Made by a program: the position numbers and the translations under genes. This document shows positions 6,962-61,777 of a stretch of 64,000 nucleotides of DNA, piece by piece. Location: the NCBI RefSeq assembly GCF_011043545.1, contig NZ_JAAKGP010000003.1, positions 434,001 through 498,000 on the forward strand. Reading direction: 5' to 3'. The notes under the pieces are model-generated. The model was given only the letters and a program-made list of their open reading frames with translations. It searched no databases and had not been told where the DNA came from. The first letter of the stretch is position 1; each line of letters opens with the position of its first letter. This DNA is from Rhodobacter sp. SGA-6-6. GTDB taxonomy: Bacteria > Pseudomonadota > Alphaproteobacteria > Rhodobacterales > Rhodobacteraceae.

Positions 6962-6965
<4 letters not shown>
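6216..6965 (+). CDS. livG: ABC transporter ATP-binding protein, LivG type
   Basis: A 249-residue ATPase. Walker A is G38-P-N-G-A-G-K-S; the signature motif is the LivG variant L-S-H-G-E; Walker B is A-F-L-L-D-E-P; the switch histidine follows in L-L-V-E-H-D. It powers uptake together with the next ATPase. The start ATG lies inside the 3' end of livM (8-bp overlap), and its stop overlaps the livF start (ATGA). No motif is missing. Confidence 0.9.
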
Positions 6966-7651
<686 letters not shown>

Positions 7652-7683
7652 GGGAGAGGCGGTCTCTCTCTGTCCACCCTGAC

Positions 7684-7900
7684 TTGGCGAAGGCGCGTGC
7701 CTTCGCCAAAGCGCAACGGTTAAATCTTCCCGGCCGGGCCTCAATGGCCCGGCCAGCGCCCGCCCGCCCCTTGGCGGGCGCTTCACGCCCGCCCGGTCGG
7801 GCGCTGGCCTCACAGGGTCTCGTGCTGCCAACGTTTCCGGGTGCAACCGCCACGCACGGGCGGGGGCGAGGCAATGCCTCGCCTTCTCCCGCCCGGTCCC
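7684..7900 (+). repeat. five-copy multi-hairpin repeat, copy A
   Basis: About 217 bp containing four ordered inverted repeats. They are TTGGCGAAGGC/GCCTTCGCCAA (11-bp stem, loop GCGT, 7684-7709); GGCCGGGCC/GGCCCGGCC (7732-7754); GGCCAGCGCCCG/CGGGCGCTGGCC with an inner GGCGGGCG stem (7751-7809); and a GCGAGGC/GCCTCGC stem inside a GGGCGGG/CCCGCCC frame near 7857-7896. The same order and nearly the same sequence occur at 18349, 29013, 60479 and, inverted, at 43528. It fills most of the gene-free stretch between livF and the tRNA gene, both of which end here. Confidence 0.85.
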
Positions 7901-7937
7901 AAAGGGGGTGCTCAAACGGCTGTCTGCAGGAAAGGGG

Positions 7938-8013
7938 TGGTAGGCGCGGAGGGACTCGAACCCCCAACCAAGGCGTTATGAGCGCCCTGCTCTGACCATT
8001 GAGCTACACGCCC
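7938..8013 (-). tRNA. tRNA with anticodon CAT, probably tRNA-Ile2 (lysidine-modified) rather than Met
   Basis: A full cloverleaf can be drawn on the minus strand. The acceptor is GGGCGTG/CGCGCCT with a G1-T72 wobble; the D stem is GCTC/GAGC; the anticodon stem is GGGCG/CGCCT with loop CTCATAA (anticodon at 7978-7980); the T arm is GGGGG-TTCGAGT-CCCTC; A73 is followed by an encoded CCA. The short D loop (AATGGTCA) and the CTTGGT stretch after the anticodon stem resemble E. coli ileX, and C4-G69 fits TilS recognition, so Ile-CAT is preferred over elongator Met. The tRNA call is firm; the amino-acid identity is less so. Confidence 0.9.
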
Positions 8014-11501: not shown

Positions 11502-11745
11502 GCGCGGCTTCGCCGCAAGCCTTTTGTCTCGCCTCTGCGCCTTTCAGGCGCAACCGGCTCGGGTCTGCCTCCGGCGGGGATATTTAGGGGCAGGTGAAAG
11601 AAAGAAGCGCTCTTCTTCCAAATTCACCTGCCACAAATATCCTCAGGGGGTTTGGGGGCAGAATGCCCCCATCAGCCGACAGCAGCCGCAAGAGCCTCCG
11701 CCAGCCATCACGAAAAGGAATGCGGCGGCAGCCGCGCCTTTGGAT
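11502..11745. repeat. 245-bp structured repeat at convergent gene ends, copy I
   Basis: This fills the gap between the rnd stop (11485) and the opposing lipoprotein stop (11752). Order of modules: GCGCGGCTTCGCCGC; a TTTTGTCTCG block; a GCGCCTTTCAGGCGC stem; CTCCGGCGGGGATATTT; and a long hairpin at 11578-11642 whose outer arms are GGATATTT/AAATATCC and GGCAGGTGAA/TTCACCTGCC. Then come GGGGGTTTGGGGGCA and a GAATGCGGCGGCAGCCGCG stem. A near-identical copy lies at 56265-56508, also between convergent genes, with changes in the hairpin that keep it paired. Confidence 0.8.
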
Positions 11746-17251: not shown

Positions 17252-18226
17252 TCATTTCATCGCCATGCTGGCCGCCGATTCCGGCAGTTCCTCGTTGAAG
17301 CAGCGCTGGTAGAACTCGGCCACGGTCTGCCGCTCCAACTCGTCGCACTTGTTCAGGAAGGTCAGCCGGAAGGCATAGCCGACGTTGCGGAAGATCTCGG
17401 CGTTCTGCGCCCAGTTCAGCACCGTCCGCGGCGACATCACCGTGGAGAGGTCGCCGTTCATGAAGGCGGTGCGGGTCAGGTCGGCCACCGTCACCATCTG
17501 GCTGATGGTCTTGCGGCCCTTCTCGTTGTTGTAATGCGGGTTCTTGGCCAGGACGATGGCGGTCTCGGCATCGTGGCTCAGGTAGTTCAGCGTCGCCACC
17601 AGCGACCAACGGTCCATCTGCGCCTGGTTGATCTGCTGGACCCCGTGGTAAAGGCCGGTGGTATCGCCAAGGCCCACCGTATTCGCGGTGGCGAAGAGGC
17701 GGAAGCTGGGGTGGGGCGTGATGATCTCGTTCTGGTCCAGCAGCGTCAGCTTGCCGTCATGCTCCAGCACCCGCTGGATGACGAACATCACGTCGGCGCG
17801 GCCGGCGTCGTATTCGTCGAAGACGATGGCGACCGGGTTGCGCAGCGCCCAGGGCAGGATGCCCTCGTGGAACTTGGTGACCTGCTTGCCGTCTTCCAGC
17901 TTGATCGCGTCCTTGCCGATCAGGTCGATGCGGGAGATGTGGCTGTCGAGGTTCACCCGCACGCAGGGCCAGTTCAGCCGCGCCGCCACCTGCTCGATAT
18001 GGGTGGATTTGCCGGTGCCGTGATAGCCCTGGATCATCACCCGGCGGTTGTAGGCGAAGCCCGCCAGGATCGCCAGCGTGGTGTCGGGGTCGAACTTGTA
18101 GGTCGGGTCGATCTCGGGCACCCGCTCGGTCTTGTCGGCAAAGCCCTTGACCCGCATCTCGGTGTCGATACCGAAGGTCTCGCGGACGGAGATTTCCTCG
18201 GTGGGTTTCGCAATGGTATCGAGCAT
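17252..18226 (-). CDS. cobS: cobaltochelatase subunit CobS
   Basis: A 324-residue AAA+ ATPase partner of CobT. Walker [10 protein letters not shown] and Walker B A-I-V-F-D-E-Y-D are intact, and length matches the family (about 325-332). The reading frame is open upstream through the repeat at 18349. The ATG at 18226 is chosen because M-L-D-T-I starts the family-conserved N-terminus and a GGACGTTCCC tract precedes it. It would drive metal insertion by remodelling the CobN complex in the cytoplasm. Confidence 0.95.
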
Positions 18227-18348
18227 GGGAACGTCCTGACTTCTCGCGCCCGCGAGCGCGAGCCAATCGGTCCGAGTAGTGGAGGATTCGCCGCGCAGCC
18301 GCAAGGGGAAGCGGCAGAAATGTGCCTGCTCGCGGAGCCCGGTATCCC

Positions 18349-18560
18349 TGGCGAAGGCGCGTGCCTTCGCCACTGTGCACCGTTTCAGCCGGGACCGGCC
18401 GGGCCCCCAAGGCCCGGCCAGCGCCCGCCCCGCCCTCGGCGGGCGCTTCTCGCCCGCCGGGTCGGGCGCTGGCCTCTCGGGGTCTCGTGACTGCCGTCTC
18501 GGGGTGCTGCCGCCGCGCACGGGCGGGGGCGAGGCAGTGCCTCGCCTCATCCCGCCCGGA
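18349..18560 (+). repeat. five-copy multi-hairpin repeat, copy B
   Basis: The same four-stem order as at 7684: GGCGAAGGC/GCCTTCGCC first, then GGCCGGGCC/GGCCCGGCC, the GGCCAGCGCCCG/CGGGCGCTGGCC frame with an inner GGCGGGCG stem, and finally GCGAGGC/GCCTCGC within GGGCGGG/CCCGCCC. It occupies most of the 357-bp gap between cobS and the J-domain gene (both minus strand). Its right end is 24 bp from the J-domain stop, so that gene reads into the element from its last hairpin. Confidence 0.85.
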
Positions 18561-18583
18561 CAGAGCGGGAGTGATCCCGGCCC

Positions 18584-19219
18584 TCAATCCCGGAAGTAGC
18601 GGCTGTCCTTGATCTGGTCCCAGGCCCAGACCACTTCCTGCAGTTGCTCCTCGTGGCCGCGGTCGCCGCCGTTCATGTCGGGGTGCAGCACCTTGATCAG
18701 GCCCTTGTAGACCTTGCGGATCTCCGTCTTCGACATGGTGTCGCGGGCGTCGAGGATCTCGATCGCCTTGCGCTCGGTCGGCGGCAGCTTGCGGGTCGCG
18801 CCCGAGGCCGGGAGGGCGCCGGGGTTGCGGGTGGCCTTCTCGCCCAGGATCTGCATCGGGTCGTTGACGCCCATCCGCGCCCAGGCATTGCCGTCGCCCT
18901 GGCGCGAGAAGGGCTTGGTCTCGCGGCCCCAGACGCGGTCCTGGTCGACGATCTTCTGGAATTCCTCGTCGGTGGTGCCGTGGAAGTAGTTCCACTTCAG
19001 GTTGTATTCGCGGATGTGGTCCTTGCAGAACCAGAAGAACTCGTCCAGCAGGTCGGGCGACTTCGGCGCGCGATAGGCGCCGGGCCGGTCGCAGCCGGGA
19101 TGGTCGCAGGCGCGGCCGGTCGCCTCGGCCGCGGCGGGGCCGCCGCGGCGGCTGGCCTGCTTGCGCTTCTTGTCGGCGCTGACGCGCAGGTCGAAGTCAA
19201 AGGGGGGCTTGGTCGCCAT
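18584..19219 (-). CDS. J-domain co-chaperone with a Cys-rich N-terminal region
   Basis: A 211-residue protein. The C-terminal 60 residues form a J domain: helix E-I-R-K-V-Y-K-G-L-I-K-V-L, the H-P-D motif (about residues 181-183), then a helix before D-S-R-Y-F-R-D at the C-terminus. This should stimulate a DnaK-type ATPase. The N-terminal half has a small cysteine motif, C-D-H-P-G-C with a later F-C-K-D-H, that could bind zinc. The start ATG at 19219 is used instead of a longer frame that runs into the bolA region. It is divergent from bolA (84 bp) and upstream of cobS on the same strand. Confidence 0.88.
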   Translation of the reverse strand: MATKPPFDFDLRVSADKKRKQASRRGGPAAAEATGRACDHPGCDRPGAYRAPKSPDLLDEFFWFCKDHIREYNLKWNYFHGTTDEEFQKIVDQDRVWGRETKPFSRQGDGNAWARMGVNDPMQILGEKATRNPGALPASGATRKLPPTERKAIEILDARDTMSKTEIRKVYKGLIKVLHPDMNGGDRGHEEQLQEVVWAWDQIKDSRYFRD

Positions 19220-27773: not shown

Positions 27774-28979
27774 ATGGTCACTACACCGCAGATCCCGGGC
27801 CTGGCCACCCGCCTTGCCGCGCCTGCGCGGCTTCTTGCCACGCGGCTGGGGCATCTGGCCCGCGCGCCGCGCCGCGGGCGGCCCGCGCCGCCGCCGGTGC
27901 CGGGGGCGATCCTCGGCGGCCGGCTGCACGCCCCGGTGCTGGCGGCCAGCCCCGAATCCGTCCTCTGGGCAGCGATGCGGGCGGAGCACGCGGCCCTTGC
28001 CGCCGAGGGCCGGTGGGCCGAGCTTTTCGCCGTCCTGCGCCGCGCCGACCATGCCCGCACCGCCGCGCCGGGCGGCCGCCGCCTCGCCGCGCTGGTCAGC
28101 GAGGGCGCCCGGATGCCTTTGGCGCAGGCGCTGGCCCGCCGCGACTGGCCCGCCGCGCTGGCCGGGATCGACCGTCTCGCCGATGTGCAGGCCGCGCATG
28201 AGGACGACCCGATGGCCGCGCATCTGCTGGCGCAGGCGCATCTCGACTATGGCTGGGCGCGCCGCAGCGCCGAGCCCGGGCCGGGCGTCCCGCGCGAGGT
28301 CTGGCAGGACTTCCTCCACCACACCGCGCTGGCCGAGGCCGCGCTCGGTTCCTTCGACCCGGTCGAGGAGGATTCGCCGCTGCTGGCCGGCACCCGCTAT
28401 CTGCTGGTGCGCGGCATCGAGGAGGGCGATGCCCATTGCCGCGACTGGTATGAGGACTGGTCCGACCTCGACCCCACCAACCCCGAGCCGCACCTGACCC
28501 ATGCCGTCCACCTGCTGCCGCAATGGTTCGGCACCCTGGCCGGGTTCGAGGACGAGGCCCGCGCCGCCCTGCGCCGCACCCGGGCCTGCACCGGCGCCTC
28601 GGCCTATGCGCTGTTCCATCTGGCGGCGGCGGAGATGCTGGGGGACCTGCCGCCCGGCGCGAATCTGGCGCTGTTCGTCGCCGGGCTGGTGGATCATTTC
28701 CACGCCACCGGCTGCCAGTATCGCGCCAATATCGTTGCCGCCGCCCTGACTGAATTGCATCACGGCCTGACCGAGGCCCCGCCGCAGCGCCGGGCGGTGG
28801 TGCAGGAGGCGCTGGACGACCACCTGCGCAACTCCGTCCGCGAGTTCCACCTTTCGGCCTGGGAGAACGGCGGGGCGGGCATCTCCTATGCGCTGGAGCA
28901 GGTGTTCGGCCGCGACCTGGCGAGGGGGGAGCATGTCTGTCTCGGCCCGGAGGGACTGGTGACGCGGCTGCCGGGGTGA
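27774..28979 (+). CDS. uncharacterised 401-residue protein
   Basis: A soluble, Ala/Leu/Arg-rich, mostly helical protein without a signal peptide or membrane segment. Residues 1-60 are basic and Pro/Arg-rich; from about 60 it reads like repeated helical pairs (A-A-M-R-A-E-H-A-A-L-A-A-E-G-R-W-A-E-L-F), suggestive of TPR-like solenoid architecture, but no repeat consensus is clear. A conserved-looking central part reads H-C-R-D-W-Y-E-D-W-S-D-L-D-P-T-N-P. The start ATG at 27774 has no strong ribosome-binding site. Function unknown. Repeat copy C starts 34 bp after its stop. Confidence 0.65.
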   Translation: MVTTPQIPGLATRLAAPARLLATRLGHLARAPRRGRPAPPPVPGAILGGRLHAPVLAASPESVLWAAMRAEHAALAAEGRWAELFAVLRRADHARTAAPGGRRLAALVSEGARMPLAQALARRDWPAALAGIDRLADVQAAHEDDPMAAHLLAQAHLDYGWARRSAEPGPGVPREVWQDFLHHTALAEAALGSFDPVEEDSPLLAGTRYLLVRGIEEGDAHCRDWYEDWSDLDPTNPEPHLTHAVHLLPQWFGTLAGFEDEARAALRRTRACTGASAYALFHLAAAEMLGDLPPGANLALFVAGLVDHFHATGCQYRANIVAAALTELHHGLTEAPPQRRAVVQEALDDHLRNSVREFHLSAWENGGAGISYALEQVFGRDLARGEHVCLGPEGLVTRLPG

Positions 28980-29012: not shown

Positions 29013-29230
29013 TTGGCGAAGGCTATTGCCTTCGCCACATCGCAACGGTTCCCCTTTATCCCGGCCGGGCCTCAATGGCCCGGCCAGCGCCCGCCCCGCC
29101 CTCGGCGGGCGCTTCTCGCCCGCCGGGTCGGGCGCTGGCCTCCCGCGGGCTCGTGCTACCGTCGTCTCCGGTTGATATGCCGCGCACGGGCGGGGCGAGG
29201 CAGTGCCTCGCCTGTTTCCGCCCGGACAGG
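29013..29230 (+). repeat. five-copy multi-hairpin repeat, copy C
   Basis: Four stems in the same order and orientation as copy A. The first stem has a changed loop region (GGCGAAGGCTATTGCCTTCGCC), but pairing is kept. The central GGCCAGCGCCC...GGGCGCTGGCC frame is almost base-for-base identical to copies B and E. It lies between the 401-residue gene and gatB (both plus strand), beginning 34 bp after the stop, and takes up most of this 333-bp gap. No gene is seen in the remainder. Confidence 0.85.
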
Positions 29231-29312: not shown

Positions 29313-30830
29313 ATGCCCATGCTCGACCTGACCTTCACCCCGCCGCAGCCCAAGGTGATCCAGGGCGCGAAACACGACTGGGAACTGGTGATCGGGATGG
29401 AGATCCATGCCCAGGTCGCCTCCAACGCCAAGCTGTTCTCCGGCGCCTCCACCACCTTCGGCGCCGAGCCGAACTCCAACGTCGCCTTCGTCGATTGCGC
29501 GATGCCGGGGATGCTGCCGGTGATCAACGAATTCTGCGTCGAACAGGCCGTCCGCACCGGCCTCGGGCTGAAGGCGCAGATCAACCTGACCTCGGCCTTC
29601 GACCGCAAGAACTATTTCTACCCCGACTTGCCGCAGGGCTACCAGATCAGCCAGCTCTACCACCCCATCGTCGGGGAAGGGGAAGTGCTGGTCGAACTCT
29701 CCCCCGGCATCGCCCGCCGGGTCAGGATCGAGCGCATCCACCTGGAGCAGGACGCCGGCAAGTCGATCCACGACATCGACCCGAACCTCAGCTTCGTGGA
29801 CTTCAACCGCACCGGCGTCGCGCTGATGGAGATCGTCTCCCGCCCCGACATCCGGGGACCGGAGGAGGCGGCGGCCTATGTCACCAAGCTGCGGCAGATC
29901 CTGCGCTACCTCGGCACCTGCGACGGCAACATGCAGAACGGCAACCTGCGGGCGGACGTGAACGTCTCGGTCTGCCGGCCCGGCCAATACGAGAAATGGC
30001 AGGCGACCGGCGATTTCTCGCACCTCGGCACCCGCTGCGAGATCAAGAACATGAACTCGATGCGCTTCATCATGGCGGCCATCGACTACGAGGCGCGGCG
30101 CCAGATCGCCATCCTGGAAGACGGCGGCACGGTCACGCAGGAGACCCGGCTCTACGACCCCGACCGCAACGAGACCCGCTCGATGCGGTCGAAGGAAGAG
30201 GCGCACGACTACCGCTACTTCCCCGACCCCGACCTGCTGCCGCTGGAGATCGAGCAGGAGTGGGTGGACGGCATCGCCGCCACGATGCCGGAACTGCCGG
30301 ACGCCAAGAAGGCCCGGTTCATGGCCGACTTCGGCCTGACCGACTACGACGCCTCGGTGCTGACGGCGGAACTGGATTCGGCGCGCTACTTCGACGAGGT
30401 GGCCAAGGGCCGCGACGGCAAGCTGGCGGCGAACTGGGTGATCAACGAGCTGTTCGGCCGGCTGAAGAAGGAAGGGCTGGAGATCGCCGGCAGCCCGGTC
30501 TCGGCCAAACAGTTGGGCGGGCTGGTGGACCTGATTTCCGACGGCACCATCTCGGGCAAGATCGCCAAGGAGTTGTTCGAGATCCTCTGGACCGAGGGCG
30601 GCGATCCGGCCGCCATCGTTGAAGCCCGCGGCATGAAACAGGTCACCGACACCGGCGCCATCGAGGCGGCGGTGGACGAGATCATCGCCGCGAATCCGGG
30701 GCAGGTCGAGAAAGCCCGCGTCAACGCCAAGCTGGTCGGCTGGTTCGTCGGACAGGTGATGAAGACCACCGGCGGCAAGGCCAATCCGGCGGCGGTGAAC
30801 GATCTGGTGGTGAAGAAGCTGGGGCTCTGA
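29313..30830 (+). CDS. gatB: aspartyl/glutamyl-tRNA amidotransferase subunit B
   Basis: A 505-residue GatB, the kinase/tRNA-binding subunit of GatCAB, which amidates Glu-tRNA(Gln) and/or Asp-tRNA(Asn). Family blocks include [33 protein letters not shown] and the C-terminal YqeY-like domain. Two ATGs at 29313 and 29319 follow AGAGGGG; the first is kept. gatA and gatC are not in the window, so the subunits are not in one operon here. Confidence 0.96.
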
Positions 30831-43081: not shown

Positions 43082-43513
43082 ATGGACGAACTGGATCGCA
43101 ACATCATCGGGCTGCTGGGGGCGGATGCCCGCATGTCGGTGGCCACGCTGTCGCGCCGGCTGAAGGTGGCACGTTCCACCATCCAGGCCCGGCTGGAGCG
43201 GCTGGAGACCGGCGGAGTGATCGCCGGCTACACGCTGAAGCTGGGCGAAGGCGCGCGGGAAGGGCGGCTGCGCGCCTCGGTGCTGCTGACGGTGGAGCCG
43301 CGGTCGCAGGCGGCGATCCTGACCCGGCTGAAGGCGGTCAGCGAGGTGGAGCGGGTCTTCACCACCTCCGGCCGCTTCGACCTGCTGCTTCAGGTGGCCT
43401 GTCCGAACACCCAGGTGCTGGACCAGGTGCTGGACCAGATCGGCGCGATGACCGGGGTGAAGTCCAGCGAGAGCCTGATCCATCTGTCGACGAAGATCGA
43501 CCGGGCGGTGTAG
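43082..43513 (+). CDS. Lrp/AsnC-family transcriptional regulator
   Basis: A 143-residue regulator. The N-terminal HTH begins M-D-E-L-D-R-N-I-I-G-L-L with the A-D-A-R-M-S-V segment, then the recognition helix V-A-R-S-T-I-Q-A-R-L-E-R-L-E-T-G-G-V-I-A-G-Y. A C-terminal ligand-binding (RAM) domain with the G-x-x-D-L-L-L-Q-V strand follows. Lrp-family proteins sense amino acids; the divergent decarboxylase gene is the obvious target. Repeat copy D begins 15 bp after its stop. Confidence 0.92.
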   Translation: MDELDRNIIGLLGADARMSVATLSRRLKVARSTIQARLERLETGGVIAGYTLKLGEGAREGRLRASVLLTVEPRSQAAILTRLKAVSEVERVFTTSGRFDLLLQVACPNTQVLDQVLDQIGAMTGVKSSESLIHLSTKIDRAV

Positions 43514-43527
43514 GCGGGGCCATTTGG

Positions 43528-43737
43528 CCGGGCGGGAACAGGCGAGGCACTGCCTCGCCCCCGCCCGTGCGGGACCTGTCAACCGGAGACGTTGCGGCAC
43601 ATATCCCCGAGAGGCCAGCGCCCGACCGGGCGGGCGAGAAGCGCCCGTCGAGGGGCGGGCGGGCGCTGGCCGGGCCATTGAGGCCCGGCCGGTCCGGCTG
43701 AAATGGTGCGCTGTGGCGAAGGCGATGGCCTTCGCCA
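43528..43737 (-). repeat. five-copy multi-hairpin repeat, copy D (inverted orientation)
   Basis: The only copy on the minus strand. Read on the plus strand it begins with the GCGAGGC/GCCTCGC stem, then the GGCCAGCGCCCG/CGGGCGCTGGCC frame, GGCCGGGCC/GGCCCGGCC, and ends with GGCGAAGGC-GATG-GCCTTCGCC. It sits between the opposing ends of the Lrp-type gene (15 bp away) and gltA (68 bp away). The inner half of the third stem differs most from the other copies. The 291-bp gap holds nothing else recognisable. Confidence 0.83.
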
Positions 43738-43804
43738 TGTCAATGACGAACACCGGCCGGGACCTTGCGGTCCCGGCCGGGCAAGCGAAGCGGCGCGCGC
43801 CGTC

Positions 43805-45094
43805 TCAGCGGTTGCGCAGGTCGACGTAGTCGCGGCGGTCGGGGCCGATATAGAGTTGCCGCGGACGGCCGATCTTCTGGTTCTTCTCGGCGATCATTTC
43901 CTTCCACTGGCTGATCCAGCCGACGGTGCGGGAAATCGCGAAGATCGGGGTGAACATCGAGGTGGGGAACCCCATCGCCTCCAGGATGATGCCCGAGTAG
44001 AAATCGACGTTGGGATAGAGCTTCTTCGAGATGAAATACTCGTCCTCCAGCGCGATCCGCTCCAGCTCCTTCGCCACCTGCAGCGTCGGGTTGTTGTGGA
44101 TGCCCAGCAGGTCCAGCACCTCGTCGGCCGATTCCTTCATCACCTTCGCCCGCGGGTCGAAGTTCTTGTAGACCCGGTGGCCGAAGCCCATCAGCCGGAA
44201 GCCGGAATTCTTGTCCTTGGCCTTGGCGATGTATTCCGGGATGCGGTCGACGGTGCCGATCTGCTTCAGCATCTCCAGGCAGGCCTGGTTCGCGCCGCCA
44301 TGGGCCGGGCCCCAGAGGCAGGCGATGCCGGCGGCGATGCAGGCGAAGGGGTTGGCGCCCGAGGACCCGGCCAGCCGCACCGTCGAGGTGGAGGCGTTCT
44401 GCTCGTGGTCCGCATGAAGCATCATGATGCGGTCCATCGCCTTTTCCAGGATCGGCGAGACCACGTATTCCTCGGCCGGGACGGCAAAGCACATGTTCAG
44501 GAAGTTGCCGGCATAGGAGAGCGAGTTCTTCGGATAGACGAAGGGCTGGCCCATCGAATACTTGTAGGCCATCGCGGCGATGGTCGGCAGCTTGGCGACC
44601 ATGCGGATCGCCGCGACCTCGCGCTGCCAGGGGTCGTTGATGTCGAGGCTGTCGTGGTAGAAGGACGACATCGCGCCCACCACGCCGACCATCGTCGCCA
44701 TCGGGTGGCTGTCGCGGCGGAAGCCGCGGAAGAAGTAGTGCATCTGCTCGTGCACCATGGTGTGGCGGGTCACCCGTGCGGTGAAATCGGCCAGCTGGTC
44801 GGCGGTGGGCAGGTTGCCGTAAAGCAGCAGGTAGCAGACTTCCAGATGGGTGGACTTCTCGGCCAGCTGCTCGATCGGGTAGCCGCGGTAGAGCAGTTCG
44901 CCCTTGTCGCCGTCGATATAGGTGATTGCGCTTTCGCAGGCGGCGGTGGAGGTGAAGCCGGGGTCGAAGGTGAAGACATCGGCCTCGCCGTAGAGCTTGC
45001 GGATGTCCACCACGTCCGGCCCGATGGTCGGGCGGAGGACCGGCAGGTCGTATTCCTTGTCGTCCAGCCTCAGCGTGGCTTTGCGGTTCGTCAT
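43805..45094 (-). CDS. gltA: citrate synthase
   Basis: A 429-residue type II (hexameric) citrate synthase that condenses oxaloacetate and acetyl-CoA in the TCA cycle. Active-site stretches include M-G-F-G-H-R-V-Y-K with the catalytic His, G-P-A-H-G-G-A-N with the second His, and P-N-V-D-F-Y-S-G with the catalytic Asp. The M-T-N-R-K start at 45094 after GGGGGACATTGAG is preferred over a longer open frame. It is downstream of gltX on the same strand, about 100 bp apart with a hairpin between. Confidence 0.97.
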
Positions 45095-49660: not shown

Positions 49661-49710
49661 GGGGGCGCTTCGCCCCCGCACCCCCAGAGGATATTTGTGG
49701 ACAGATGAAA
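49661..49710 (+). repeat. GC hairpin plus ATATTT/GACAGA short repeat after moeA
   Basis: GGGGGCG-CTT-CGCCCCC (49661-49677) is followed by GGATATTTGTGGACAGATGA (49689-49708), ending next to the moeA stop at 49711. In the direction of moeA transcription it reads as a TTTCATCTGTCC block, AAATATCC and then the GC hairpin, probably a terminator unit separating moeA from lexA. Confidence 0.6.
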
Positions 49711-50874
49711 TCAGAGCGGCAGGTAGGGGACCGTCTCGCCCGCCTGCCGCGGGCCGTCGCCGGCCGGGCGGATCAGCAGCGCGTCGGCCTCGGTCAGGAT
49801 GGTGAGGAGCGAGCTGTCCTGGCGGTCGAAGGGGGCGATGGTCTCGCCGTCGAGGCGGGCGCGCATGTAATGGGTGCGCGGCCCGGTGGCGGGCAGGTCC
49901 AGCGCCAGCCGGGCGGTGCGGGTCTGCGGCAGCGGCGCCGGGTCGCCCTGCATCGCCCGGATCAGCGGCAGGAGGAACAGGTGGCCGGTGACGATGGCCG
50001 AGACCGGGTTGCCGGGCAGGCCCAGCATCGCCGCCCCGCCCATCCGGCCCGCCATCAGCGGCTTGCCCGGGCGCATGGCGATCTTCCAGAACGCCGGCTC
50101 CATCCCGAGGTCGCGGGCGACCTTGCCGACCAGGTCGTGGTCGCCGACCGAGGCGCCGCCGATGGTGACCAGGATGTCCGCCCCTTCGGCCAGTGCGAAG
50201 GCCTGGCGCAGCGCCGCCTCGCTGTCGCGGGCGATGGGCAAGAGCCGGGCCTCGGCGCCCTCGGCCTCGGCCATCGCCTTCAGGGCGAAGCCGTTGGAGG
50301 CGATGATCTGGTCGGGGCGCGGGTCTTCCCCGGGCATCACCAGCTCGTCCCCGGTCATCAGCAGGGCGACCACCGGGCGGCGGGCGCAGGGGACGCTGGC
50401 GACATTCATCGCCGCCAAGAGCGACAGGTCGGCCGGGCGCAGGCGGCGGGGGGAGAGGGTGGCGCCGGCGGGGAAATCGGTCCCGCGCGGGCGGATGTTG
50501 TCGTTGCGGTCGGCAGCGGTCAGGGTGATGCGGTCGCCGTCGCGGCTGACATTCTCCTGGATCACCACCCGGGTGGCGCCGGCGGGGACCGGGGCGCCGG
50601 TGAAGATGCGGACGGCCTGGCCGGGTCCGACAGCGCCGGCGAAGCCGTGGCCGGCGCCGGATTCGCCGATGACGGCGAAGCTGTCGCCGGGGGCGGGGTC
50701 GCCCTGCAGGGCGTAGCCGTCCATCGCCGAGGCGTCGAAGGGCGGCTGGTCGGCGCGGGCGGCGACCGGGCGTGCCAGCCAGCGGCCCACGGCCCGGGTC
50801 AGGGCCAGGTCCTCGGTCCCGAGCGGCCTTGCCATGGCCAGCACACGGGCCTGGGCTTCTTCGACCGGAATCAT
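49711..50874 (-). CDS. moeA: molybdopterin molybdotransferase
   Basis: A 387-residue MoeA that inserts molybdate into adenylylated molybdopterin. Family segments include [13 protein letters not shown] near the N-terminus, R-I-F-T-G-A-P-V-P, the [12 protein letters not shown] loop and [10 protein letters not shown]. The start overlaps the moaC stop by 4 bp. It is the last gene of the trpC-moaC-moeA set. Confidence 0.95.
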
Positions 50875-52182: not shown

Positions 52183-52233
52183 CCGGGGGTTTCACACCCC
52201 CGGACCCCCGTGGGATATTTATGGACAGATGAA
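52183..52233 (+). repeat. GC hairpin plus ATATTT/GACAGA short repeat between trpC and ung
   Basis: CCGGGGGT-TTCAC-ACCCCCGG (52183-52203) is followed by GGATATTTATGGACAGATGA (52213-52232). It lies in the gap between the ung stop and the trpC start, both minus strand. It is nearly identical to the element at 49661-49710, including the terminal hairpin. Confidence 0.6.
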
Positions 52234-52283
52234 GGGGCCGGACTTTGTTGCGGTCCTAGCGTGGCGGCCCGGGCGGGGAAAGT

Positions 52284-56264: not shown

Positions 56265-56508
56265 CGCGCGGCTTCGCCGCAAGCCTTTTGTCTCGCCTCT
56301 GCGCGCAAGCGCGCAACCGGCTCGGGTTTGCCTCCGGCGGGGATATTTGGGGGCAGGTGAAAGGGAAGAAGCGCGCCTCTCCCTTTCACCTGTCTATAAA
56401 TATCCTCAGGGGGTTTGGGGGCAGAATGCCCCCATCCGCCGGCAGCAGCCGCAGGAGACTCCGCCGGCCACCACGAAAAGGAATGCGGCGGCAGCCGCGC
56501 CTTTGGAT
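56265..56508. repeat. 245-bp structured repeat at convergent gene ends, copy II
   Basis: Almost the same sequence and module order as 11502-11745, again filling the gap between converging stops (the YibQ-like gene and purD). Its main hairpin spans 56341-56405 with paired GGATATTT/AAATATCC and AGGTGAAAGGGA/TCCCTTTCACCT arms. Compared with copy I the upper stem is changed on both sides so that pairing is kept. It ends against the purD stop codon. Confidence 0.8.
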
Positions 56509-60478: not shown

Positions 60479-60692
60479 TTGGCGAAGGCGCGTGCCTTCG
60501 CCATGGCGCACCATGTCAACCGGGACCGGCCGGGCCTCCAAGGCCCGGCCAGCGCCCGCCCCGCCCTCGGCGGGCGCTTCTCGCCCGCCGGGTCGAGCGC
60601 TGGCCTCTCGGGGTTCAGAGCTGACAGGTTTCCGGGTGCTGCCGCCGCACACGGGCGGGGGCGAGGCAGTGCCTCGCCTTTTCCCGCCCGAT
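60479..60692 (+). repeat. five-copy multi-hairpin repeat, copy E
   Basis: The same order as copies A-C, starting with TTGGCGAAGGC-GCGT-GCCTTCGCC, and almost identical in its central part to B and C; one arm base differs (GTCGAGCGC for GTCGGGCGC). It lies between the tandem-paralogue operon and the alkB-type gene, both minus strand, with its right end 21 bp from the alkB-type stop. It accounts for most of the 367-bp gap. Confidence 0.85.
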
Positions 60693-60712: not shown

Positions 60713-61777
60713 CTACCGCGCCCCCTGCCAGCGTCGCAGCGCCGGGCGGATGGCACGTTTCCACAGCGGCGGCACCAGCGCGAGGGTGCAGGCCAGCGGC
60801 AGCGGCCAGGGCAGGCGGGGGGCCTCGTCCGCCTCTCCCAGCCGCAGGACGGGATAGGGGCGGGTCGGGTGGCTGTGGTGGTCGGAATGCCGCGGCGCGT
60901 TCAGCATCAGCGCCGAGGAGAACCAGGGGCCGGAGTTCCAGCTGTGCGCCGGACCCACCGGCGCCGGCCTGCCGTCGGCCAGGGCGGCGCGGCGCAGGCC
61001 GTAGTGCTGGACGTAATCGGACAGCAGGATCTGCATCTGCGCCAGCGCCGCCAGCCCCCACCAGGCCGCCACCCCGCCGCCTCCGGCGATGACATAGGCG
61101 ACGACCAGCGCCAGCAGACTCCCCGCCAGATGCCAGAGATAGGGATGCAGCCCCCGCGGCCCCGATCCGCGCTTGCGCAGCGCGGTTTCGGCCCGCCGGC
61201 CGGCCCGGTAGCTGCCGATCCAGGCCCGCAGGGCGAAGCGGTAGAAGCCCTGCCCCTCGGGCGCGGAATTGGGGTCCTCGGGCGTGGCGACATGGCGGTG
61301 GTGCACCAGCCGGTGGGCGCTGGCGTGCTGGCCGAACAGGATGGCGGCGTAATAGCCGGTGCCGAGGCGGAACAGCCAGCGGTTGCCGCGGTGGATCAGC
61401 TCATGCGCCGCCGGATGGCCGACCTGGCCGAGCCAGAGCCCGGCGCCGAGGAAGATCAGCCCGCGGCCGAGCGGGGACAGGCCGGACGGCCCCGCCACCG
61501 CCCAGGTCGCCAGCGGCAGGAGCGCCAGCGCGGAAAGGCCGACCGCGACCAGAAGGGCGTCGGAGCCGGGAAACTCCTGCCCCTCGGTCGCGTCGGCGGC
61601 GACATGGGGGATCAGCCGGTCCAGCACGGCGGAAAGGCAGAACATGTAGAGGAAGCCGGCCCAGACGAAAGGACCGCCGCCCCAGAGGCCGAGCGCGAAC
61701 AGCGGCAGCGGCGCCAGCGCGGCCGCGGCGAAGGCGGCGACAGGCAGGGGATGGCGCAGGCGCTTGGTCTTGGGCAT
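60713..61777 (-). CDS. alkB: AlkB-type alkane/fatty-acid membrane monooxygenase
   Basis: A 354-residue membrane-bound di-iron hydroxylase. Several hydrophobic helices are interleaved with histidine boxes: H-E-L-I-H-R; H-R-L-V-H-H-R-H; a D-Y-V-Q-H-Y-G-L-R-R motif; and A-P-R-H-S-D-H-H-S-H-P, the last two being strong AlkB signatures. It would hydroxylate a terminal alkyl group, with electrons from a rubredoxin that is not encoded nearby. M-P-K-T-K at 61777 is chosen as start. Members of this clade may act on fatty acids or other lipids instead of alkanes, so the substrate is open. Confidence 0.87.
   Translation of the reverse strand: MPKTKRLRHPLPVAAFAAAALAPLPLFALGLWGGGPFVWAGFLYMFCLSAVLDRLIPHVAADATEGQEFPGSDALLVAVGLSALALLPLATWAVAGPSGLSPLGRGLIFLGAGLWLGQVGHPAAHELIHRGNRWLFRLGTGYYAAILFGQHASAHRLVHHRHVATPEDPNSAPEGQGFYRFALRAWIGSYRAGRRAETALRKRGSGPRGLHPYLWHLAGSLLALVVAYVIAGGGGVAAWWGLAALAQMQILLSDYVQHYGLRRAALADGRPAPVGPAHSWNSGPWFSSALMLNAPRHSDHHSHPTRPYPVLRLGEADEAPRLPWPLPLACTLALVPPLWKRAIRPALRRWQGAR

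Follow-up and report, generated by a model that had tools for sequence, protein, structure and literature searches.

An old family of four-hairpin intergenic repeats in Rhodobacteraceae, located near gene 3' ends and exchanged for inverted copies at kept sites

Rhodobacteraceae genomes contain an old family of intergenic repeats, each built from four hairpins whose order and spacing are fixed. The repeats lie near the 3' ends of genes, and at sites kept between two strains of Rhodobacter capsulatus resident copies have been exchanged for inverted, unrelated ones. From this structure, placement and exchange, we infer a possible function and a route of spread. The family adds to Rhodobacteraceae a large, structure-conserved intergenic element missing from Rfam. 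Because the model phototroph R. capsulatus carries it, its function and turnover are directly testable. Inverted exchange at kept sites could also help separate repeats selected at their site from selfish ones, a long-standing question for bacterial intergenic repeats.

The window contains five copies of a four-hairpin element

The window, a stretch of 64,000 nucleotides from the genome of Rhodobacter sp. SGA-6-6, holds five copies of the element of about 210 nt each, at positions within a few bases of those first proposed (Table 1). The copies measure 209-211 nt and have a mean column identity of 88% (n = 5). They have the common hairpin order, common loop sizes and long identical blocks given in the preliminary description. 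In the window copies, H1 is followed by a linker of 23-25 nt, H2, H3 directly adjoining H2, a second linker of 48-50 nt and H4. H1 is a 10 bp stem with a 4-nt loop and H2 a 9 bp stem with a 5-nt loop. H3 consists of an 8 bp outer stem, an internal loop and a 9 bp inner stem carrying the 5-nt loop CTTCT or CTTCA, while H4 combines an outer stem with an inner 8 bp stem. The two ends of the element in these copies, H1 and H4, differ in sequence and do not form an inverted repeat. An alternative pairing is possible between the right arm of H2 and the far end of H3, and the minimum-energy fold of copy 2 uses it. The region of copy 2 (18348-18563) folds with a z-score of -4.77 on each strand compared with dinucleotide shuffles, none of 200 shuffles being as low. 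Because this fold is equally strong on both strands, it does not tell the strand of the element. Outside the element, 76 copies from the window's genome show a weak flank consensus, CCGGYTTCC before H1 and GCCAGACCGG after H4, which may pair.

Table 1. Location, hairpin coordinates and gene context of the five element copies in the window.
Copy	Position	Strand	H1	H2	H3	H4	Context
Copy 1	7685..7895	+	7685-7708	7732-7754	7755-7806	7857-7895	33 nt past the stop of a livF-like gene (6962-7651 +); then tRNA-Met on the opposite strand (7938-8013 -)
Copy 2	18349..18558	+	18349-18372	18397-18419	18420-18471	18520-18558	Direction opposite to both neighbors; 25 nt from the stop of 18584-19219 -; upstream of cobS (17252-18226 -)
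Copy 3	29014..29224	+	29014-29037	29063-29085	29086-29137	29187-29224	About 33 nt past the stop of 27897-28979 +; upstream of gatB (29319-30830 +)
Copy 4 (inverted)	43529..43737	-	43714-43737	43668-43690	43616-43667	43529-43567	Convergent pair: Lrp/AsnC-type regulator (43082-43513 +) and citrate synthase (43805-45094 -)
Copy 5	60480..60690	+	60480-60503	60528-60550	60551-60602	60652-60690	22 nt from the stop of a fatty-acid-desaturase-like gene (60713-61777 -)

The element matches no Rfam family, and neither of the two enzyme families tested is a consistent partner. At gathering scores, Rfam identifies only a tRNA in the window, and below threshold copy 2 gives chance-level matches only (best E 0.51). 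Among the open-licence PMC papers listed by our searches, no title or abstract beginning describes such an element in Rhodobacteraceae, an earlier description being possible. The word Rhodobacter is absent from the main text of PMC12306157 and PMC3733652, and passages of PMC8632094 concern other Rhodobacterales motifs. Y1_Tnp (PF01797) has no matches in the window's genome and is found in 5 of 14 control genomes. The early remark that no transposase is present thus holds for this one transposase family, whose gene may have been missed in an assembly gap or lost from the window's genome. One reverse-transcriptase gene is present there, and such genes occur in 4 of 12 genomes. Neither enzyme is consistently associated with the element, and both were rejected as partners. 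No target-site duplication was detected in 76 copies (mean best repeat 0.57 versus 0.70 in shuffled sequences). A phage or plasmid origin was also rejected: no phage matched, and the plasmid matches consist only of the H3 part on two Leisingera plasmids.

Hairpin pairing is conserved across genera

The same order of four hairpins, built from other stem sequences, is found in Frigidibacter albus (G233), Pseudorhodobacter sp. PARRP1 (G275) and a congener of the window's strain (G011). Among the matches listed, it also occurs in R. capsulatus, R. viridis and several Rhodobacter MAGs. Element length is nearly constant, with 206-214 nt in 24 boundary-matched copies from three other genomes. In an alignment of 42 copies from four genomes (A4), double changes are observed in 11 pairs and 67 cells, compared with at most 4 and 5 for slid partners. 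A second alignment from more genomes (A5; 39 model matches, 38 distinct), which was itself fitted to the structure, yields 28 pairs and 145 double-changed cells, with slid controls reaching at most 15 and 22. Covariation therefore exceeds the slid controls in both alignments, and pairing is conserved across genera via double changes. The early remark that stem substitutions largely keep pairing is borne out across genomes; within this genome little covariation is seen, and the window stems hardly vary. Templated correction can also keep DNA hairpins matched, so conserved pairing is no proof of RNA. Regarding the options initially named, a non-autonomous repeat, a structured RNA or a nucleoid- or termination-related element, the data support a high-copy structured repeat without its own gene, and pairing cannot tell RNA from DNA.

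The exact core hairpin is seen in 31 of 248 family genomes including the window's own (reversed control 0). A model search, in which nine candidates were scored per genome and E-values are rough, gives matches in 88 of 248 genomes at E up to 1e-4 and above 100 bits in 7 of 248. Other genomes, for example G259 and G249, show the H2-H3 part alone in the stretches read, with a GGCGGGCGCTTCTCGCCC arm. This two-hairpin Rhodobacteraceae relative has the H2-H3 part in common with the element, whereas H1 and H4 were not seen in the stretches read; it may be an ancestor or a reduced form of the element. A recurrent C/A mismatch in H3 (GGGCGGGCGCTTCTCGCCCACCC) is found in two-hairpin relatives from several genera (G259, G249, G021, G022, G016 and G017). 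Several copies of a further element, in which H3 is enlarged and a GTTAACAGCCGC..GCGGC hairpin is present, occur in the congener G011 (L046, L047, L049, L052 and L053). In Frigidibacter albus (L164, L165) and a Frigidibacter MAG (L221), the left arm of H3 is interrupted by two extra hairpins, with its pairing retained around them.

The element is abundant and diverse in the window's genome

In a 1.264 Mb sample of the window's genome, consisting partly of stretches picked for already known hits, a profile search identified 78 copies. Of these copies, 77 span at least 190 of the 213 model positions; six weaker separate profile hits were excluded from all later counts. The exact core is present 150 times in the genome, and at least 150 full-length covariance-model matches are found, the lowest among those listed scoring 162.7 bits. 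Further copies, proposed in the preliminary description as a check on the five, are thus plentiful, and given these numbers the similarity of the five window copies is not due to chance. Four gap-free contigs, already known from an earlier search to hold matches, contain 37 copies in 800 kb, or one per 21.6 kb, and the genome total estimated from this density is probably about 200. One copy per 13 kb, the density first proposed, would have given 330.

The best-matching pair among the 78 copies is 94% identical, so that nearly identical recent copies are absent. Mean divergence from the consensus is 22% for linkers, with a minimum of 11%, and 1.6% for stems. At distances of 9-15 nt, variable sites are already associated little more than in permuted data (r2 0.025 versus 0.017), and all four combinations occur in 98% of site pairs more than 60 nt apart, on which grounds tree-like subfamilies were rejected. 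The lost association represents either exchange between copies or an old star-like divergence. Multi-base alleles common to many copies, such as CATC or GCGT in the H1 loop, favor exchange and fall short of proof. A recent burst of young copies was first suggested by mild depletion of private alleles in stems (0.27 per site versus 0.42-0.45 in linkers). It was withdrawn because of the linker divergence, because alleles recur and because singletons undercount. In the congener G011, two syntenic gaps whose flanks both match close to the site lack a copy, as do two gaps with looser matches. At these four gaps, copies were gained here, or lost in G011, after the split of the two.

Copies are located near gene 3' ends

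None of the 78 copies lies inside a predicted gene, and 59 of 77 have the stop codon of a gene that reads toward them at a distance of at most 50 nt, compared with 17.2 expected (maximum 29 in 2000 draws). Expected counts refer to random intergenic placement in the window's genome. Neighbor counts are based on the 77 copies with both neighbors known, one edge copy being dropped. These copies occupy 25 convergent, 44 same-direction and 8 divergent gaps, with 12.6 convergent gaps expected. In R. capsulatus DSM 1710, 29 of 41 copies are found in convergent gaps, and for 20 of the 29 the spacing to either gene is 20 nt or less. Gene starts and short genes may be off in the gene calls, which for R. 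capsulatus come from a caller applied without retraining. Two of the five window copies were scanned for transcription signals (43480-43830 and 7640-7960), and neither a T-run terminator nor a sigma-70-like promoter was found. The position just past stop codons supports the termination-related role considered at the outset, while the absence of a T-run at the two scanned copies speaks against it.

Copies at kept sites in R. capsulatus are exchanged for inverted, unrelated ones

R. capsulatus DSM 1710 contains 42 copies and SP108 41, of which 41 and 40 were compared, leaving out one copy in each. Both strains are occupied at 36 sites, 34 with both flanks matched and 2 with one, while five copies in DSM 1710 and four in SP108 have no partner among those compared. 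Orientation is inverted at 20 of the shared sites and equal at 16. At all 16 equal-orientation sites, flank homology reaches the element on at least one side. Element identity at these sites is 0.83-0.97 with one exception (0.72), and linker identity is 0.77-0.97 except for L309/L350 (0.65) and L380/L372 (0.55). At all 20 inverted sites, flank homology ends 2-42 nt short of the element. Mean linker identity is 0.63 for inverted pairs (range 0.36-0.77), 0.645 for unrelated pairs and 0.84 for same-orientation pairs. Inversion of the same copy in place was rejected, as linkers of inverted pairs are no more alike than those of unrelated copies and homology in the genomic frame is also at the control level (12.7 versus 12.7). 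Resident copies have instead been exchanged for inverted, unrelated ones. Across 13 homologous pairs of equal orientation, differences affect 70 of 1766 hairpin positions and 101 of 855 linker positions (p = 2e-13); hairpins thus change more slowly than linkers in homologous copies.

Comparison with R. viridis, for which 20 of 29 copies were included, yields 13 three-way sites. All three genomes agree at 3 of them, and the odd one is DSM 1710 at 3, SP108 at 3 and R. viridis at 4. This 3:3:3:4 split would fit both a strict two-state model and single replacements. Where R. viridis has equal orientation, element identity is 0.79-0.89, partly close to background, and homology leans on the flanks too. 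Assembly error as the source of inverted sites is unlikely, since R. viridis, a third assembly, has homologous copies in either state. Neighboring direct copies are observed among the matches listed, three in L289 and two each in L213 and L280. Pseudorhodobacter contigs C24 and C20 likewise contain direct neighbors, and C20 has one inverted neighbor (G278:C20:44503-45315; two direct, one inverted).

Possible function, spread and exchange

We favor, tentatively and with somewhat less than even confidence, a reading in which the repeat is an orientation-independent 3'-end element that is spread by some route and exchanged in place. Strong hairpins on both strands would end incoming transcripts or protect their ends, and with hairpins on both strands orientation would hardly matter. 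One element between convergent genes would then serve both transcripts. As the convergent gaps of R. capsulatus hold little else, the transcript-ending signal is probably in the element or the genes. Because the two scanned copies lack a T-run, such a role would require Rho or end protection. Kept pairing, near-constant length, proximity to stop codons, the tight convergent gaps of R. capsulatus, slower change of hairpins and free orientation (20 inverted, 16 equal) all count in favor of this reading. Counting against a 3'-end role are the 8 of 77 copies between divergent genes, where no transcript runs in, and the missing T-run. Copies would also be enriched at gene ends if they were simply kept out of promoters and coding sequence.

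Spread may involve some machinery that moves copies, perhaps one acting on folded single strands at replication forks; such a mechanism would account as well for the leading-strand preference seen in this genome and described below. Counting against this are the lack of a consistent partner among the two enzyme families tested, the lack of a target-site duplication in 76 copies and the absence of the bias from four other genomes. Regarding exchange, a new copy arriving beside an old one in direct orientation would stay as a tandem pair, in keeping with the direct neighbors noted above. An inverted arrival would instead create an unstable long inverted repeat from which one copy would be lost, and completed replacements would consequently appear inverted. 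We infer this step from its outcomes, the one inverted neighbor in Pseudorhodobacter being the only intermediate seen. Less probable is a reading of the sites as two-state cassettes, in which a site is kept over species-level divergence and its resident is exchanged for an unrelated copy entering only inverted. If true, they would represent a new mode of repeat turnover, with fork-exposed folded single strands replacing each other in inverted register, and the genome would keep a working, orientation-independent 3'-end element at each place. To our knowledge, replacement by inverted copies has not been described for REPINs, REPs or MITEs.

It is rather unlikely that the family is a miniature repeat that is purely selfish and has no function where it resides, gathering past gene ends as other insertions are harmful, with only well-folded copies able to move. 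Such a repeat would be expected to show the high copy number, the sporadic distribution (exact core in 31 of 248 genomes), the absence from two clearly syntenic and two looser gaps in G011 and the depletion between divergent genes (8 of 77). However, resident homologous copies in the two R. capsulatus strains change less in hairpins than in linkers, most sites are common to both strains (36 versus 5 and 4 without partner) and the window's genome lacks nearly identical recent copies (best pair 94%).

Horizontal transfer of whole intergenic regions between strains, with no inverting process, is an unlikely source of the inverted sites. R. capsulatus makes gene transfer agents, the break in homology lies close to gene ends and, at the sites compared, the R. 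viridis copy resembles whichever strain has its orientation. Random exchange would nevertheless affect both orientations alike, whereas unrelated copies number 20 inverted and 0 equal when judged by flank continuity, and 19 inverted and 2 equal when judged by linker identity below 0.75. In addition, flanks are no more divergent at inverted (95.2% identity) than at equal sites (94.5%).

Most copies follow the leading strand in the window's genome

With elements masked, contig GC skew places 64 of the 78 copies from the window's genome in the direction of the leading strand (p = 9e-9, assuming independent copies); for genes the share is 57% by length. Between two lagging-strand genes, 13 of 20 copies still follow the leading strand, and between two leading-strand genes 23 of 24. 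When contigs with four or more listed copies are considered, 111 of 137 copies point the same way as the majority on their contig, compared with 82.5 under the null and no more than 100 in any of 20000 draws; contig C44 is split 8 to 8. These counts would fit a chromosome-architecture signal read in one direction relative to replication, similar to polar segregation or recombination motifs. We consider such a signal very improbable, as contig polarity is not seen in four other genomes when listed places on contigs with three or more are counted: R. capsulatus (16 of 22), R. viridis (9 of 10, p = 0.08), Pseudorhodobacter (29 of 48) and Frigidibacter (24 of 36). Local skew agrees with orientation for 7 of 15 copies in Pseudorhodobacter (G275) and 2 of 10 in Frigidibacter (G233), and orientation flips at kept sites. 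Absent from the four other genomes examined, the leading-strand bias is no general property of the element. Positions 1-139000 of contig C44 contain no copy and are followed by a part with mixed orientations; the copy-free 139 kb is perhaps near the replication terminus or an acquired region.

A family of small-RNA genes acting in trans, which the covarying structure and near-constant length would suit, is the least credible reading, given that no sigma-70-like promoter was found at the two copies scanned, no Rfam family matches, linkers vary freely and orientation flips with kept flanks.

Similarity to known repeats

With its high copy number, extragenic location and position near gene 3' ends, the element belongs to the dispersed intergenic palindromic repeats. 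REP/BIME sequences likewise are numerous palindromes dispersed between genes; passages of PMC3733652 and PMC2817692 place most of them beyond gene ends and in same-direction or convergent gaps, and one passage gives REP units as 20-40 bp (PMC3733652). The element, in contrast, has a single fixed unit of about 210 nt whose four hairpins all differ and keep one order. Units of 209-211 nt, spanned to at least 190 of 213 model positions by 77 of 78 copies, do not represent short REP/BIME units, in line with the early judgment that size and complexity go beyond simple REP sequences. The motif CGTC is present in the linker consensus (positions 150-153) and not as a conserved flank of one hairpin, as the GTAG/CGTC tag of REP/BIME would be.

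REPINs are paired REPs that are moved by RAYT and form sequence populations. The element resembles them, as far as they are portrayed in parts of PMC3116915 and PMC8049555, in being a non-coding repeat population that persists in genomes with exchange or star-like diversity. It is far larger than REPINs and possesses four hairpins, and in contrast to both REP/BIME and REPIN systems no Y1/RAYT-type transposase gene was found in the window's genome. Bidirectional intrinsic terminators between convergent genes also have strong GC hairpins close to both stop codons. The element differs from these terminators in having no T-run at the two copies scanned, in its four hairpins and length of about 210 nt, and in forming a dispersed, exchanging family. 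MITEs and the small repeats ERIC, RUP and BOX are short, non-coding, multi-copy and intergenic, as is the element. Unlike MITEs, it shows no target-site duplication (76 copies) and no terminal inverted repeats, H1 and H4 being different.

A second repeat family is also present in the window. It consists of a G/C hairpin followed by CCCC..GGATATTTnnnGACAGATGAA or a close variant (11578-11650, 49689-49715, 52213-52239 and 56341-56412). Six hits are found in the window, including two facing pairs that form a 111-nt unit and are 95% identical (11635 and 56398), and 35 hits are present in the 1.264 Mb of the window's genome.
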